Assembly (NCBI GenBank): GCA_938041445.1
Contig: CALISO010000029.1
Coordinates: 81,032-145,031, forward strand
From: an uncultured Saprospiraceae bacterium
GTDB taxonomy: Bacteria > Bacteroidota > Bacteroidia > Chitinophagales > Saprospiraceae
Direction: 5' to 3'
DNA: 64,000 bases
Each line of letters starts with the position of its first letter. Positions within the stretch are counted from its first letter, which is position 1. The translations under genes and the position numbers were made by a program. The notes below the pieces were generated by a model. It did not search any database, was not told the DNA's origin, and worked only from the letters and a program-made list of their open reading frames with translations. Below are positions 28,816 through 36,420 of the stretch, one piece after another.

Positions 28816-29619
28816 CTATCCCATATCACTTACCTCCATCATCGCATCTTCTACCTGGTGAACAAGTTGAGTGTAGAGAGGGTCACGCTTAGTCTCCTTA
28901 GTTCTCACAAGAGGAAGGTTGACAGGTATATGCTTGACAAATTGGGAAGGTGCTGACTTCATAATGTAGATGTCATCAGCCAGAAATACTGCTTCAGGAA
29001 TATCGTGGGTCACAAAGATTACTGTACTTTGAAACTTGTTCCAAACATTTGAGAGAAGCATCTGCATATTGAGTCTAGTACGTATATCTAATGCTCCAAA
29101 TGGCTCATCCATTAAAATGATGGAAGGATTAGCAATGATACTTCTTGCAATGGCTACCCGTTGCAGTTGACCTCCTGACAATGTTGGATACTGGGCATAC
29201 TTCCATTCGTGTCCTTTTAATCCTACTAGTTCTATCAATTCCCTTGCTTGCTCTTCGCGTTCTTGCTTAGGTACTCCTTTGAATTTCAGTGCAAGTGAAA
29301 CATTCTCAAGTACTGTCATCCAGGGTAATGATGAATACTGTTGGAATACCATACTAGCACGATTGGTCTTGTCTGGGGGATTACCATTCAGCAAGACCTT
29401 GCCTTCTGTAGGTTGTTGTAAACCAGCAATATATCTGAGTAACGTGGACTTACCACAACCAGACATTCCCAAAATTACTATAAACTGCCCTTGATCAGGT
29501 TTGTCCTCAATCAGAAACTCTAAATCTTTGATTATGAATGACTCACCTCCATCATAGCTTTGGCCAATGCCCGTTAGCTCGACTATATTATTTAATGTTG
29601 TTTCTGGGAATATACTCAT
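28816..29619 (-). CDS. ABC transporter ATP-binding protein (NitT/TauT type)
   Basis: Walker A GMSGCGKSTLL, signature LSGGQLQRVAIARSI, Walker B IILMDEPFGALD. Confidence 0.93.
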   Translation of the reverse strand: MSIFPETTLNNIVELTGIGQSYDGGESFIIKDLEFLIEDKPDQGQFIVILGMSGCGKSTLLRYIAGLQQPTEGKVLLNGNPPDKTNRASMVFQQYSSLPWMTVLENVSLALKFKGVPKQEREEQARELIELVGLKGHEWKYAQYPTLSGGQLQRVAIARSIIANPSIILMDEPFGALDIRTRLNMQMLLSNVWNKFQSTVIFVTHDIPEAVFLADDIYIMKSAPSQFVKHIPVNLPLVRTKETKRDPLYTQLVHQVEDAMMEVSDMG

Positions 29620-30773
29620 GTTGTTGCTACAGATTTAGCCCTTCCATTGATCATTGGTTCTACGAGTTCTTTGACTTTGTATGCGATGATACCAACAAAA
29701 ATGACATGAATCACCCATAATGTATCACCAAACAAATAGCTGAGTAACTTAAGGTCAAGAAAGTTGAATATCTCATCAAGTGCCAAGATGAGATATGCTC
29801 CAAGACATACCCATATCAGTGCTTTTATAGCAAAGTCGATCAACAACTCTACCATTGACTCCTTTTTTAGTTCTGATGAGTATTGTTCTGTAACTTGATA
29901 CTTATGTGGAAAGAATTTCTTATCTAAATACATAAATAAGCGATCCTGAAGTATTCCAATCAAAATAAAAATGATCAGTATTGCAAACACCTTGTCTGGT
30001 CTTCCAAATCGCTTACTCGTCCAAATGATTGTTCCTAATCCTCCTTGATTTGCCATTCCTTCTGCAACAATAATATATGTCCAACTGATTGCAGTCAATA
30101 CCCTGACATCATCCATCAACTTAGATAAGACTGATGGGATATAGACAGATCTGATTGTTTGCCATTTAGTCGCTCCAAGCGTATAGACAGTCTTAACATA
30201 TACATCATCAACGTCCTTGATTCTCTGAATAATGACAGGAACCAAGTAGATCATAATACCAAATGCTAAGAAGTTGATTTTCATATTTGCACCAAGACCC
30301 CATACCAATAGGAATAGACTCGTCACAGCTGTCAATGGTACGAACCGATAGGCATCAATCTGAGATTGAAATAAAGCATTGAATAAAGGAATCAATCCGA
30401 TTAAAAATGCAATTGGCAATGACCAAAGAATAGCCTTGAGGTACCCACCTAGATTAAAACCCATTGATAAACAGAAGTTCTTAATCAAGTCATTATCACG
30501 AAACATATCTGAAAATGCGCAACCGAACACTGAATTCACTTTTTGATCTCGTTGCTCCACCACTGTCTTACCATCAGTACCTTGATATGATACATCGATG
30601 GTATGCGTATAGCATTCACCAAAAGGTCGGGGCAATAGATTTCTAGGAGCAATAGGATCATCTCCCGCTGTCACGGCAACCCATATCAGCATTATCAACC
30701 CAAAACCTATGATACCAAAGATGGTTCTTTGACTTTTAGATACCGGGCCCCTCAATTCAAACATCCAAGACAT
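29616..30773 (-). CDS. ABC transporter permease (NitT/TauT type) with extra C-terminal TM region
   Basis: BPD-like core TLGATKWQTIRSVYIPSVLSKLMDDVRVLTAISWTYIIVAEG; 4-bp overlap with the ATPase gene. Confidence 0.9.
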   Translation of the reverse strand: MSWMFELRGPVSKSQRTIFGIIGFGLIMLIWVAVTAGDDPIAPRNLLPRPFGECYTHTIDVSYQGTDGKTVVEQRDQKVNSVFGCAFSDMFRDNDLIKNFCLSMGFNLGGYLKAILWSLPIAFLIGLIPLFNALFQSQIDAYRFVPLTAVTSLFLLVWGLGANMKINFLAFGIMIYLVPVIIQRIKDVDDVYVKTVYTLGATKWQTIRSVYIPSVLSKLMDDVRVLTAISWTYIIVAEGMANQGGLGTIIWTSKRFGRPDKVFAILIIFILIGILQDRLFMYLDKKFFPHKYQVTEQYSSELKKESMVELLIDFAIKALIWVCLGAYLILALDEIFNFLDLKLLSYLFGDTLWVIHVIFVGIIAYKVKELVEPMINGRAKSVATT

Positions 30774-30779
30774 AGGCGA

Positions 30780-32420
30780 TTATCCTGGGATTAATTCGAA
30801 ATCTGTCCTTCTATTTTTTGCTTTACACTCGGCAGTAGCATTGGACTCACATCCTGCAACTGGCTTATTCGGTCCATTACCTAAGATCACAAACCTGTTT
30901 CTATCTAGACCATATTCTTGTTGTAGATAGCTTGCTACTGACTGTGCTCTTTTTTCCGAAAGGGTGATATTGTTTTGTAATGATCCAGTACTATCTGTAT
31001 TTCCTTCAATACGAATTTTTGTACCTGCAAATGCTTTTGCCACTTCAGCAAACTGCAGATCGATTATTGTCTTTGCATTAGCAGTCAATTGATGTTGCCC
31101 TGTTGCAAAACTTATACTTACTGGCTTAGTTGCAATCGGTGCTACAACCTTATCCTTAGGAGACGCAGGAGTAAATACCTTACTCTTTTCTGCTGCATAC
31201 TTAGATCCTTGAAGCTCACTAGCATTTTGTACAGCTCCAGTGTAGATCACAGACCTCCAACTTGGGGCTGTCTTAGTCGCATCTCCAGTCTTCACAAAGT
31301 TCTTAGACATCTTGGTGTATAGTTCTTTACCTGTCATCCCTTTATAACTTGGATTAAGGCCAAAGAAGTTGACATTATCACCGTGTGAAGTCCACTTTAC
31401 AACAGACATCATTCCAAGTGCATCATCAGTAGACACACCATTTAGTTCGGCTAGATACTTTGCAGCTTTCTCTTGGTTAGACTTATTATTAAGTTCAGCA
31501 ACACCTTTCATCCAACCCTCGTAGAAATCATTAAACATTTGTCTCTTTCCGTCGATTACGTCTTGTGTTGCTACCATAATGTCGGCAATGACATTAGTTT
31601 GACTCTCTGTATTCAGTAGTATTGATGAACCAGGAACATCTCTAGTTGCGATAATATCATCTGGACTCCAAACGACAGCCGCATCTACATCATTAGTTCT
31701 GAATAACTCTGCAGCTTTCAGGTTATCTGTAGTTTTGATGACCTTGACATCGTTATAATTCAGTCCTGCTGCTTCCAAAGATGTAATTAGCAATGTTTGA
31801 GCTGGTGAAGGAACTGCAACTGCAATTGTCTTACCCTTCAGGTCATTGACTGACTTGATTCCTCTCTTTACAATAATCGCATCTCCACCTCTAGACCAGT
31901 CAACCTGCATAAATGCTCTTGGATTGGCTGCATTGATCTCATCAGGTGCTGTATACAATGGAAATGCATCAGCAGTCTGCACGATGACGTCATACTCACC
32001 TGCCAACCACGCGTCCATTGCTACAATCAAGTCATTTTCTAGTTTGAAGTCAACTTTAAAACCATACTCTTTATAGAAACGACTTCTGAGATTTGCTTCA
32101 GCACCTTCATTGAAATATAATCCTGGTGCATATCCACCCCAACTTACAAGTTGGACTCTTAATGTCTCATCGTCACCTCTCGATGTAGAGTTAGCTGATT
32201 TTCCAGCGTTGGTATTTTTACTCCCATCACTATTCTTGCCTAGGATTGTTGTTTTATCTCCATTCGTTGAAGTTCTAGTTTCTTCTGTTTTGTCAGCAAC
32301 GTTGATTGAGCCATCCGGATTAACGAATTTTTCTTTCAATTTCAGAAAGCCAAATGCCAATATCGCTAGTATGATAGCGGTGATTAATAATTTTGAAAAT
32401 GTGGTTAGACGCTTTGCCAT
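30780..32420 (-). CDS. Substrate-binding protein (NitT/TauT/SsuA-like) fused to C-terminal OmpA domain; N-terminal TM anchor
   Basis: N-terminal TM LLITAIILAILAFGFLKL; SBP segments GYAPGLYFNEGAEANLRSRFYKEYGFKVDF and GKTIAVAVPSPAQTLL; C-terminal ISFATGQHQLTANAKTIID...RIEGNTDSTGSLQNNITLSEKRAQSVASYL...NRRTDFEL. Confidence 0.9.
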   Translation of the reverse strand: MAKRLTTFSKLLITAIILAILAFGFLKLKEKFVNPDGSINVADKTEETRTSTNGDKTTILGKNSDGSKNTNAGKSANSTSRGDDETLRVQLVSWGGYAPGLYFNEGAEANLRSRFYKEYGFKVDFKLENDLIVAMDAWLAGEYDVIVQTADAFPLYTAPDEINAANPRAFMQVDWSRGGDAIIVKRGIKSVNDLKGKTIAVAVPSPAQTLLITSLEAAGLNYNDVKVIKTTDNLKAAELFRTNDVDAAVVWSPDDIIATRDVPGSSILLNTESQTNVIADIMVATQDVIDGKRQMFNDFYEGWMKGVAELNNKSNQEKAAKYLAELNGVSTDDALGMMSVVKWTSHGDNVNFFGLNPSYKGMTGKELYTKMSKNFVKTGDATKTAPSWRSVIYTGAVQNASELQGSKYAAEKSKVFTPASPKDKVVAPIATKPVSISFATGQHQLTANAKTIIDLQFAEVAKAFAGTKIRIEGNTDSTGSLQNNITLSEKRAQSVASYLQQEYGLDRNRFVILGNGPNKPVAGCESNATAECKAKNRRTDFELIPG

Positions 32421-32473
32421 TTTATTATGGTATGTATTTGTGATTGAATGTTTTGACGTATTGTGTTGACTTC

Positions 32474-33487
32474 CTAAAAGAAGTCATCATATTCATTGTT
32501 ACCAGATTGTTCTTTGACCTTTTCAATATGTGAATCGAGTTCTAGTATATCCTCTTTCTCAACATCATTGAGAATATCTTGCTTGGCAGCTCCCAATATC
32601 AGGGAATCTGACTTGGCTTCCCACTCCTCAAGCATTTTCATTCCTTTCTCTTCAAAGATACCGTTTTGTATATCTATAGAATTCATAAAATCTTCTGACA
32701 TATCCATAAAATTCTCCATCTCTCCTACCTTCAATGATACATCATCAGTGATTACTTCCATTGCTTGATCAAACATTGCTTTCTTATCCTTATCCCCTTT
32801 GATGATATTCATTGCAGACTTCATCGCACTATGACTTGCGAGAATTGCCTTTTGCTCTTGTGACTTAATCTTTACCTGATCTTCAATATCCTCGATTAAG
32901 ATGTAAGAATTGTCCGACATCTTTGTCAAGACTCGCTGCATTACTTCCATCTTTTTCAGCAACGTTTCAAGCTTCACATTACTCTCTTTAAGTCTTCCAG
33001 CCTTCCGAGTCTTAAGGATGAGCTGTTTCTCATTGTTATTGACTTTTGCCTTGGTTGCAATGTTCATATTTGACTTGATCTCCTCACTGTTATTGAATAT
33101 CATCTCCATCAACTTGTGCTTTTCTTTACGCAACTTGCCAATTTGGATATTCATTTTTTTGAGGTTATACTTTAGGTCATCGACATATCCATTAAGGATG
33201 CTCATCGGGTCAATCTTGACAAAGATTCCAGTAATCCACCGCATCAATGATTGATACATATAGCCCACAACAGACCTTGTACGTGAATCTAATGCCATAA
33301 ATACAATGAGCCCAACAGTAATCAAACCTACTGCCATACCTATTGGTGTCACTAGTGCACCGGCTAAGACTGTGAAAAACTTAATAATAAAGAATGTTGC
33401 AAGACCAAGTGACCCTAGGAGAAATAGACCTCCAACGATTCCTTCAGGCTTTTGCCAAAATGACTTAGTGAGTCGCTTTCTTGCCAT
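32474..33487 (-). CDS. Membrane-anchored coiled-coil protein (PspA-like layout), function unknown
   Basis: Two N-terminal hydrophobic segments followed by a long Lys/Glu-rich helical region (VDDLKYNLKKMNIQIGKLRKEKHKLMEMIFNN...). Confidence 0.7.
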   Translation of the reverse strand: MARKRLTKSFWQKPEGIVGGLFLLGSLGLATFFIIKFFTVLAGALVTPIGMAVGLITVGLIVFMALDSRTRSVVGYMYQSLMRWITGIFVKIDPMSILNGYVDDLKYNLKKMNIQIGKLRKEKHKLMEMIFNNSEEIKSNMNIATKAKVNNNEKQLILKTRKAGRLKESNVKLETLLKKMEVMQRVLTKMSDNSYILIEDIEDQVKIKSQEQKAILASHSAMKSAMNIIKGDKDKKAMFDQAMEVITDDVSLKVGEMENFMDMSEDFMNSIDIQNGIFEEKGMKMLEEWEAKSDSLILGAAKQDILNDVEKEDILELDSHIEKVKEQSGNNEYDDFF

Positions 33488-33605
33488 AGAGTTTTAATGT
33501 GTGTAGAGTACAAAAGTACGAATCTATAACGAGATATGGAGTAAGATAAATTCCAACCTTGTTATGTAGTTAGTCTAAGAAAACAGACTGTTTATCTATA
33601 CAGGC

Positions 33606-34286
33606 CTAAGAACTATGTTGTTTGATCATATCAAGGTCTTTCTGTATCTGGTCTACAAGGATGTGGTAAGCACCATAGAAGCCATCTTTGGTTGCAGCGA
33701 CTTTTGCAGAAGCCTTACTTGACGATTGCTTGATTTGCTCTAAATCTGCCTTAAGTTTCTCAACTTCTTGTTGCAGTTCAACAATACGATCCTCTCTATC
33801 CTTAATGCCCTTGACGTGTGCCTTCAGTTTTTCTTCACGTTTTTGCACACGGTTTGTTTGTTGATTATCAAACGCTACCTGAAATTTTTGCTCTTCTGAA
33901 AGTAGAACCGCTAAATACTTATCACCCGATTGCACTAAACTTTTAGGTGTAGCACCCATCGTTTTTGCCATCGCTAAAGCTGACTTATATCGAGTAGCAT
34001 CGTCCATATCAACATTACCAAGACTTTGTAGTGATTGCTTGAATTCTAAATAATCAAAGCCCTCAATGTTGTTCTTCTCTATCGCCTCCAGTAATTTATT
34101 GATAAATCTCTCACTTGGTTGAGCATCCGCACTAGGCCGTGGCACGTCTTTACTAGTTGGAGCAGTAGTCTGCGGCTTAGGCTTAGGATTTGAGGTCGGC
34201 TTGACTTTATTACTTTCCTTGGCCTCAGGAGTACCATCTTTAGCACCTTCGTCAACGATGAATAGGTTTTTGATCTTATCGAGCAT
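33606..34286 (-). CDS. Hypothetical protein with Pro/Lys-rich linker and C-terminal coiled coil
   Basis: Linker KVKPTSNPKPKPQTTAPTSKDVPRPSADAQ; coiled coil REDRIVELQQEVEKLKADLEQIKQ; same strand, upstream of the SBP-OmpA operon. Confidence 0.7.
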   Translation of the reverse strand: MLDKIKNLFIVDEGAKDGTPEAKESNKVKPTSNPKPKPQTTAPTSKDVPRPSADAQPSERFINKLLEAIEKNNIEGFDYLEFKQSLQSLGNVDMDDATRYKSALAMAKTMGATPKSLVQSGDKYLAVLLSEEQKFQVAFDNQQTNRVQKREEKLKAHVKGIKDREDRIVELQQEVEKLKADLEQIKQSSSKASAKVAATKDGFYGAYHILVDQIQKDLDMIKQHSS

Positions 34287-34346: not shown

Positions 34347-34805
34347 TTAAACGTATCCTTTTGGAAAATTGAACATTTGGTGGTAACTATCATCTTGCCC
34401 TTGAGAAAAGATGTAGTTAGTTCTGCCATTAGTAACCCAGCAATACGGAAATTGGAGTTTCAGATTGTAGCGAGCGATTTGATTGAATACACTTTGGTTG
34501 ATTGGCTCCGTCCAAGCCTTGCATTCTACGAGTAAAAATGGTTCTCCACCATTATAGACAACGATGTCTGATCGCATTTCTCCTAGCACATGATTATTAG
34601 ATTCAACCTCTATTGACTTAATTCTAATAGATTCAACTTTAACCAAGTAGCTGATGACTAATTGCCTAACCATTTCCTCTGGTTGCTGTACAAGCCATTT
34701 GTGTCTTACTGGACAGTATATGTGTGGTATTGAGTCAATCTCTTTCACTCTAAGCTGTGCTTGATATGTCAATAAATCAATCTCCCAAGCTTGCATGTAG
34801 TACAT
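34347..34805 (-). CDS. Stand-alone HsdR N-terminal-like (HSDR_N_2) nuclease-fold protein
   Basis: MRSDIVVYNGGEPFLLVECKAWTEPINQSVFNQIARYNLKLQFPYCWVTNG: D...ECK of a PD-(D/E)xK-like core. Start may be Met4. Confidence 0.8.
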   Translation of the reverse strand: MYYMQAWEIDLLTYQAQLRVKEIDSIPHIYCPVRHKWLVQQPEEMVRQLVISYLVKVESIRIKSIEVESNNHVLGEMRSDIVVYNGGEPFLLVECKAWTEPINQSVFNQIARYNLKLQFPYCWVTNGRTNYIFSQGQDDSYHQMFNFPKGYV

Positions 34806-36420
34806 CTTTAATATTTGCCATCTTCATCATACTATTCGTATAAGTTAACTCGACATTAATAATACCCAGACCCAGTCTTTGCATAGCCTCTATAATCTGA
34901 GTTTGGAATATCCAATCAGACACTGTTTCAACATCGAGTAGGTAGCCATATGTGATGATATGTGTTGTCCTACTTTGATCTACAAAACACTCCATTAAGC
35001 TATCACTCATTGAATTAATAGTCAATTGTTCAAATTCATTAATGTGCAACCAATCCAACACATAACTATCTGAGAGAATCCTAGAAGAAATCAAAATATG
35101 CTCTTTATTAAGAAAGATATATACTTGTGGCAGTCTATCAGCTAGTACAGTCGACAGCAACCTAGCATTGTGAACAAGCTCAGTATCAGTCAGTCTTTGC
35201 TTGAATATCATACCATCAAGACGAGGATATCTTGTAGAACTTGGTGCTACTTGATAGTTAACGACTTTATTATCAGTAGAATGACTAAAATTAACTGGTA
35301 AGATATAGACAAACTCTTCGTGTTTGCCACTGATATCTACATCTGAAGAAATGAACAATCTTTCGTTTAGATTTCCGATATATGACCTGAGATAGAACAA
35401 TGCATCCCTATAAGCAACTTGACTTGCAGAATAGTCTATCCTCTGAGTGTAAGCACTAGCAATATAAAATTGCAACACTCCACTCCAAGGTGTATGAATA
35501 TTGTAGATGGCTAATAGTCGAATTAGTTCTTGGCTTATTGGATGACAATTAACAAAAGCATCTAACCAATTCAAAACCTGTTGATCTTTAAAGACATAGA
35601 GTACTTGTCGAGCATCTATCAATTGTTGATCAAGGAAGTCAATTAATTGTGCCGCATTTAGAGGATTCTTATCACTGGATATGCGCAATAATTCTAGCAT
35701 TTTCAACTCCTCTTGATAAGTGACTTTGGCCGAGAACAGATGGAGAACTTGTGGGTCGCCAGTCTTATTATTCTGCCGCTTTAGTTCACCATCAGTTAAC
35801 CCAAGTGCCTTTACTCTTGAGACATTCTCTTCAATCTTGTTTACGGCCTTCTTCAGACGAATCAAATCTTCATTTAACCATTGTTGATTATAATCTGTGG
35901 CATCTATATGTTGAAAAAGCCATTCATAATCTAGCAAGCCAACCATAAAAGATTGGATACTTTCCACCTCCTGAATGATGGGCTCCCTTAGGGCAAATGG
36001 AATACTCCTTAATAATTGATGTATTGGCAGGTAAGTGCTGCTACCATCATCCATCAAAGTATGGAGTATAGATTTTTTATTTATTTCTTCGCCAAGAACT
36101 AGGTATTGTTGACCAAGTTTGATTGCTTTCTGAGATGGATAGAAATCATCAGACCAGTTTCCTTTTAAGGCTCTAGAAGGTTCAGAATACTGCAAGTCTA
36201 TATTGAGAGATGAACAAGCTGCCTTTATTCCTTTTAGAATCTCAGCATCATCAATATGAACTGATACTTTGCGTCCACTTTGTATAAGGGTCAATGCATA
36301 GTCAACCAATATATAGCCTAGAGTAGACTTAATTGGGTCTGTAATCAGTGAATTCTTGTCAGAAGAAACATTGACTAAGAAGCGAGAAACCCTATGTGGG
36401 ATATGAGGTAGCTTCTTCAC
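34777..36420 (-). CDS. Hypothetical protein, 547 aa, no recognised domain
   Basis: Long uninterrupted ORF in a same-strand run; 3' end overlaps the start of the HSDR_N_2-like gene. Confidence 0.75.
   Translation of the reverse strand: MKKLPHIPHRVSRFLVNVSSDKNSLITDPIKSTLGYILVDYALTLIQSGRKVSVHIDDAEILKGIKAACSSLNIDLQYSEPSRALKGNWSDDFYPSQKAIKLGQQYLVLGEEINKKSILHTLMDDGSSTYLPIHQLLRSIPFALREPIIQEVESIQSFMVGLLDYEWLFQHIDATDYNQQWLNEDLIRLKKAVNKIEENVSRVKALGLTDGELKRQNNKTGDPQVLHLFSAKVTYQEELKMLELLRISSDKNPLNAAQLIDFLDQQLIDARQVLYVFKDQQVLNWLDAFVNCHPISQELIRLLAIYNIHTPWSGVLQFYIASAYTQRIDYSASQVAYRDALFYLRSYIGNLNERLFISSDVDISGKHEEFVYILPVNFSHSTDNKVVNYQVAPSSTRYPRLDGMIFKQRLTDTELVHNARLLSTVLADRLPQVYIFLNKEHILISSRILSDSYVLDWLHINEFEQLTINSMSDSLMECFVDQSRTTHIITYGYLLDVETVSDWIFQTQIIEAMQRLGLGIINVELTYTNSMMKMANIKDVLHASLGD

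Follow-up and report, generated by a model that had tools for sequence, protein, structure and literature searches.

Five consecutive minus-strand open reading frames (ORFs) in the chromosome of an uncultured Saprospiraceae bacterium (Bacteroidota), labelled A, B, C, D and E in order of transcription, stand, in our judgement, roughly an even chance of forming a conserved module of five components for envelope maintenance, with a wall-tethered ATP-binding cassette (ABC) sensor/importer acting alongside an ESCRT-III-like membrane protein. The genes lie within a 64,000-nucleotide stretch of assembly GCA_938041445.1 (contig CALISO010000029.1, positions 81,032 to 145,031), referred to as the window. 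Occurrence of the five-gene set in both Saprospiraceae and some of the largest known phages suggests that the module is portable. The envelope reading is favoured because the five genes are linked, recur in an alternative D-E-A-B-C arrangement, include in B a putative relative of PspA and ESCRT-III proteins, appear to have A and B as their core, and keep the ATPase motifs in nearly all viral copies. The genes are as follows (TM, transmembrane; SBP, substrate-binding protein):

Gene A, 33606..34286, minus strand: 226 amino acids (aa), helical/coiled coil, first of the set; without a Pfam family.
Gene B, 32474..33487, minus strand: 337 aa, coiled coil preceded by two TM helices; without a Pfam family.
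Gene C, 30780..32420, minus strand: 546 aa, TM helix, NMT1/TauA-type SBP and OmpA domain (Pfam NMT1 and OmpA).
Gene D, 29616..30773, minus strand: 385 aa, ABC importer permease (Pfam BPD_transp_1).
Gene E, 28816..29619, minus strand: 267 aa, NitT/TauT-type ABC ATPase (Pfam ABC_tran).

The packing described in an initial annotation of this DNA, made by a model from the letters alone, was confirmed together with its coordinates: D and E overlap by 4 bp, C and D are separated by 6 bp, B and C by 53 bp, and A and B by 118 bp. No terminator-like sites were seen inside the five-gene stretch, and promoter-like sites occur there at background level only. Chance adjacency is ruled out, as ORFs and gene order are constant in dozens of genomes. 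A genome scan returned the best 80 of 350 relatives, and the complete set stands in order at 40 of the 50 bacterial loci with enough flanking sequence. B lies upstream of C at 61/64 bacterial and 25/25 viral loci, and A at 55/64 and 25/25 respectively, with intergenic gaps mostly below 100 bp in both; operons encoding SBP-OmpA fusions thus do not consistently lack the two coiled-coil genes, a neighbourhood check that the initial annotation had proposed. Among 200 Saprospiraceae genomes B is present in 189 and C in 131, whilst of 399 genomes drawn from across the Bacteroidota phylum only 4 had a close relative of C and 13 one of B. Other families of Bacteroidota have divergent versions of the five-gene set (loci L215, L216 and L220). 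An additional A-B pair, or B by itself, is found without the transporter in many genomes, and in two genomes (L213:7330-8397 and L214:9348-10433) A-B is followed, in place of the SBP-OmpA protein, by a TM-anchored protein of 355-361 aa with a C-like N-terminal TM helix and a weak Ppx/GppA-like domain. The greater frequency of B than of C, the transporter-free copies and the Ppx/GppA-like partner together suggest that A-B may be a core pairing able to work with different anchored partners.

Part of the case for an envelope function comes from gene B. Hydropathy places two TM helices at residues 17-35 and 48-66, in agreement with the two N-terminal hydrophobic segments initially described. In the predicted structure (predicted local distance difference test, pLDDT, 74.7; predicted template modelling score, pTM, 0.50) these are followed by an amphipathic-type helix (68-90), a long helical hairpin (94-149/153-229) and two further helices (234-270 and 280-311), with an invariant Asp-Pro motif, D93-P94, immediately before the hairpin. 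Comparison of profiles with hhalign aligned B to Bacteroidota PspA over 185 columns (probability 88%, E = 2.9e-6) and put D93-P94 onto the Asp-Pro motif of PspA. Against a background of 3158 ORFs from the loci studied, the best matches to the B profile outside B itself were PspA proteins (3e-12), and the reverse search with a PspA profile returned B proteins among its best non-PspA matches. A Foldseek search of the B model against the Protein Data Bank (PDB) ranked Vipp1 and ESCRT-III at the top, every one of its first 14 matches being a chain of one or the other. The initial suggestion of a PspA-type layout is therefore borne out by reciprocal hidden Markov model matches and by the structural ranking. 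Ordinary family searches are silent: A and B have no family match in Pfam, NCBIfam or PHROG, B of the window has no match to PF04012 (PspA_IM30) at E<=0.1 and does not reach the Pfam gathering threshold, and searching the PDB with its sequence returned nothing meaningful. The same genome encodes a paralogue of B with a sub-threshold PspA_IM30 match (28.9 against a cut-off of 33.9 bits), and the protein at the B position in a gut-phage fragment (L028) exceeds that cut-off (42.4 against 33.9 bits). Taken together, the profiles and the model support B as a remote homologue of the PspA/Vipp1/ESCRT-III superfamily with two added TM helices, lying outside PF04012. The B paralogue, at L030:5904-8041, shares one base with a downstream lipoprotein gene (ApbE-like by eye), and this shared base suggests a possible two-gene unit. 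At loci L068-L078, in several Bacteroidota, PspA is followed by a second short ORF that also matches the PspA profile (to ~3e-12).

Gene A encodes a predicted cytosolic protein with no TM helix by hydropathy, consisting of a variable Pro/Lys-rich N-terminus, a conserved helical region (FDYLEFK...Y.SA.A.A...G) and a C-terminal coiled coil; homologues occur in Saprospiraceae, Lak phages and the 735-kb phage. The initial proposal to compare both coiled-coil proteins with PspA gave divided results: B is remotely related, and A as a second PspA relative is ruled out (hhalign probability 0.6-8%). Control comparisons gave 7% for A with PspA and 13% for A with B. In the second type of the set, named here after Bacillus phage G, the A protein matches the A family (96.6%, E = 5.7e-10) and the B protein matches both PspA (96.9%, E = 1.6e-10) and B (94.6%), with all cross-comparisons below 8%.

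Gene C is the component that would connect this machinery to the cell wall. It has a single TM helix at residues 8-26, no lipobox that we could see, a disordered linker (~42-81), an NMT1/TauA-type domain (~85-400) and an OmpA-like domain (~430-545); the Pfam matches to NMT1 and OmpA uphold the fusion recognised in the initial annotation. The predicted structure (pLDDT 89.6) consists of the TM helix, the disordered linker, a two-lobed binding domain and the OmpA domain, and its closest PDB matches by Foldseek are TauA and SsuA. A single N-terminal TM helix is present in 76/80 bacterial and 24/26 viral copies. In an alignment of 43 Bacteroidota-type proteins, of which viral contigs supply 22, N104, S176-R177-G178, D180, P253, D255 and D280 of the binding domain are invariant, as are D476 and R491 of the OmpA domain, which we take to be the conserved Asp and Arg of the OmpA diaminopimelate site. 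Retention of C at both ends, by the inner membrane and by the wall, is well supported from sequence features, namely the one TM helix, the absence of a visible lipobox, the disordered linker and the invariant OmpA residues, and on this point the initial annotation also stands. Such a topology resembles that of MotB, and one could imagine that C works as MotB or Pal do, as a sensor of tension or spacing, with D and E signalling in the manner of FtsEX and no transport at all. The invariance of D476 and R491 would suit this proposal; however, the residues of the binding domain are conserved to the same degree as those of the OmpA domain, which argues for a ligand, and D476 is mostly Asn in C of the phage-G type. 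A pure sensor is, on balance, very unlikely.

Genes D and E look, from their families and motifs, like the membrane and motor parts of a competent type-I ABC importer. E has Walker A, signature, Walker B and the switch His; the first three are intact in nearly all copies, viral ones included, and the switch His is kept in 60/61 bacterial and 21/25 viral copies. D has two extra C-terminal TM helices by hydropathy (307-325 and 346-364), which alignment finds in Saprospiraceae permeases and not in those of phages, and a Cys-containing insertion after TM1. Both features had been noticed at the outset; the insertion is limited to the window and three congeners and is absent from all other permeases aligned. 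The locus thus combines the components of a NitT/TauT importer: an NMT1/TauA-type SBP, a BPD_transp_1 permease and an ABC ATPase with intact motifs. In NCBIfam, C, D and E match subunits of the taurine, sulfonate and nitrate types, with all scores far under the equivalog cut-offs, so that no substrate can be named from sequence. A serious rival to the envelope reading is consequently an ordinary importer of the NitT/TauT family, whose SBP is immobilised near its permease and whose A and B proteins are scaffolds that cluster or stabilise the transporter, with the phage copies serving as an auxiliary set for nutrient uptake. It is favoured by the match of C, D and E to taurine/sulfonate-type families, by the catalytic motifs retained in nearly all viral copies, and by the binding-domain residues that are invariant in 43/43 Bacteroidota-type proteins, those of phages among them. 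It accounts less readily for the genomes in which A-B or B occurs without a transporter, or for the two in which another anchored protein takes the place of C; moreover, PDD of C is replaced by PYL in the phage-G type while A and B are retained, suggesting that the ligand can change and A-B nevertheless stays. We regard this importer reading as unlikely.

The distribution of the module in viruses extends well beyond its bacterial context. Among phages, full-length relatives of C are encoded by Bacillus phage G (497 kb), by a phage of 735 kb and by Lak megaphages (540-552 kb), and the relative in a 595-kb phage is more divergent; the viral identity of the Lak, phage G and 735-kb records is based on published genomes. 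The order A-B-C-D-E is complete in the Lak megaphages and the 735-kb phage, and all five genes are present in 24/25 IMG/VR contigs with enough flank. Phage G has the second type, D-E-A-B-C, as do 20 of 22 long related viral contigs, phage G's own IMG/VR record being counted within the 22. A terminase was detected in 8/30 and 7/13 viral records, and weak sheath matches in 7/30; two contigs without terminase matches carry baseplate and phage replication genes. Misfiling of bacterial DNA as viral is thus unlikely overall, given the terminase, replication and baseplate genes; individual contigs may nonetheless be misfiled, since several show no phage hallmark. Phylogenetic analysis of C places the 27 Bacteroidota-type phage sequences in a single group (89/91) next to two bacterial sequences, with the root not fixed, and the phage copies are at least as diverse as the bacterial ones in a bacterial sample that leans toward close relatives. 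A single phage group rather than scattered captures, together with this diversity, makes the module look like an old phage function and not a recent acquisition. Shared history confounds the mirror-tree correlations, which were of moderate size, and they are not used as evidence of interaction. Phage G itself carries a tandem SBP-OmpA pair (gp249 and gp250, L026:9881-13086), with the wall-binding Asp of OmpA replaced in both. The module also has a larger variant, encoding two SBP-OmpA proteins along with a third SBP, an ABC ATPase, a permease and a vWA protein; it occurs in Vibrio megaplasmids (L203 and L204) and in the 595-kb phage (L027), TelA being present as well in the megaplasmid operons.

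Carriage by many large-phage contigs, and by named phages whose genomes are among the largest, invites a further interpretation: that the set is a phage device for superinfection exclusion or against competitors, altering the host inner membrane or wall against injection, with bacterial copies put to use in immunity or defence. Related roles have been proposed for Ter/TelA sub-membrane proteins in jumbo phages, as superinfection-exclusion or anti-competitor factors (Iyer 2021, PMC7824862), and membrane-localised proteins of huge phages have been suggested to affect susceptibility to other phages (Al-Shayeb 2020, PMC7162821); the vWA gene of the Vibrio megaplasmid and 595-kb phage operons, and the TelA gene of the plasmid ones, point the same way. 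Presence of the set's C in 131 of 200 Saprospiraceae genomes is, however, housekeeping-like rather than patchy, as a defence system would be expected to be, and the flanking genes are conserved in the genus. An exclusion device is therefore decidedly unlikely.

Under the envelope-maintenance reading, A and B would assemble on the inner membrane from its cytosolic side, stabilising or remodelling that membrane. Held by both membrane and wall, C would report ligand, the spacing between wall and membrane, or both, to D and E; by hydrolysing ATP, whether or not the ligand is imported, E would control assembly of A and B, possibly substituting for the AAA+ ATPase of related operons. Huge phages may carry the set so that the host envelope stays intact, or closed to competitors, through long infections. 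Several observations weigh against this scheme: no regulatory gene lies within the five-gene set; the intact transporter motifs are equally compatible with ordinary import; the nearly closed genome G538 (L217) keeps A, C, D and E with no detectable B; and the Foldseek E-values for B are weak (0.025 upward), for a middling model whose long helices match readily. A bolder version, in which a portable ESCRT-III-like machine gains ATP-driven control from a wall-tethered ABC importer and, in several of the largest phages of both Gram-negative and Gram-positive hosts, keeps the host envelope intact during long infections, we consider fairly unlikely. Were the module to work as envisaged, it would bring together three subjects that tend to be studied separately: bacterial ESCRT-III-type membrane proteins, the use of ABC transporters for sensing, and those membrane genes of huge phages that still lack an explanation.

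The surroundings of the operon are retained across the genus, with variation on the upstream side. Downstream lie Mrp/NifU-type genes, and two features stand upstream:

HSDR_N_2-domain (HSDR_N-type) gene, 34347-34805: stand-alone, 152 aa, directly upstream of A.
547-aa gene, 34777-36420: without a Pfam family, constant in place within the genus.

The latter is apparently fast-evolving, as its product is only 22-26% identical between congeners.

Set against known systems, the closest precedent is the group of operons described by Ravi et al. 2024 (PMC11237479, section 18), in which PspA and TM-bearing Snf7 homologues occur with an AAA+ ATPase in transporter operons that also hold an ABC ATPase, a permease and a PBPB-OmpA protein (e.g. 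OGG56892.1), and for which remodelling of the membrane was proposed to be linked with solute transport. This precedent lowers the novelty of the gene association; the initial annotation, partly supported overall, had missed both it and the distribution in huge phages. Common to the two are a TM-bearing PspA/Snf7-type protein, the ABC ATPase, the permease and the PBPB-OmpA protein, whereas the set in the window differs in its distinct A gene, its lack of a neighbouring AAA+ gene, its fixed five-gene order in Saprospiraceae and its carriage by huge phages. No AAA+ ATPase was found among the Pfam-scanned genes surrounding the operon in the window, other loci not having been scanned for one. How assembly of PspA homologues is regulated without an AAA+ ATPase was stated as unknown by Ravi et al. 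(PMC11237479), and an ABC ATPase neighbouring a PspA-like gene makes that question testable.

The main text of the papers searched on huge, jumbo and Lak phages (supplements not searched) mentions no such ABC transporter or OmpA protein. In Jug phages terD adjoins a pspA-like gene (PMC12363816), and phage-borne sub-membrane proteins are what the present module shares with these and with the Ter/TelA systems. Neither the set in the window nor the corresponding five genes in Lak phages, the 735-kb phage and phage G include a Ter or TelA gene; the variants in the 595-kb phage and the Vibrio megaplasmids join SBP-OmpA and an ABC transporter with vWA, and the plasmids add TelA. B resembles PspA and Vipp1 in its order of helices, its Asp-Pro before the hairpin, its profile similarity and its top structural matches, and departs from them in its two additional N-terminal TM helices and in having no PF04012 match. 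C, D and E, for their part, resemble NitT/TauT importers of the TauABC/SsuABC type in the fold of the binding domain and in their permease and ATPase families, and differ from them in that C has a TM helix and OmpA domain of its own, reads WSPDD where TauA has WAPAV and SsuA WDPYY, and is accompanied by the two coiled-coil proteins A and B.

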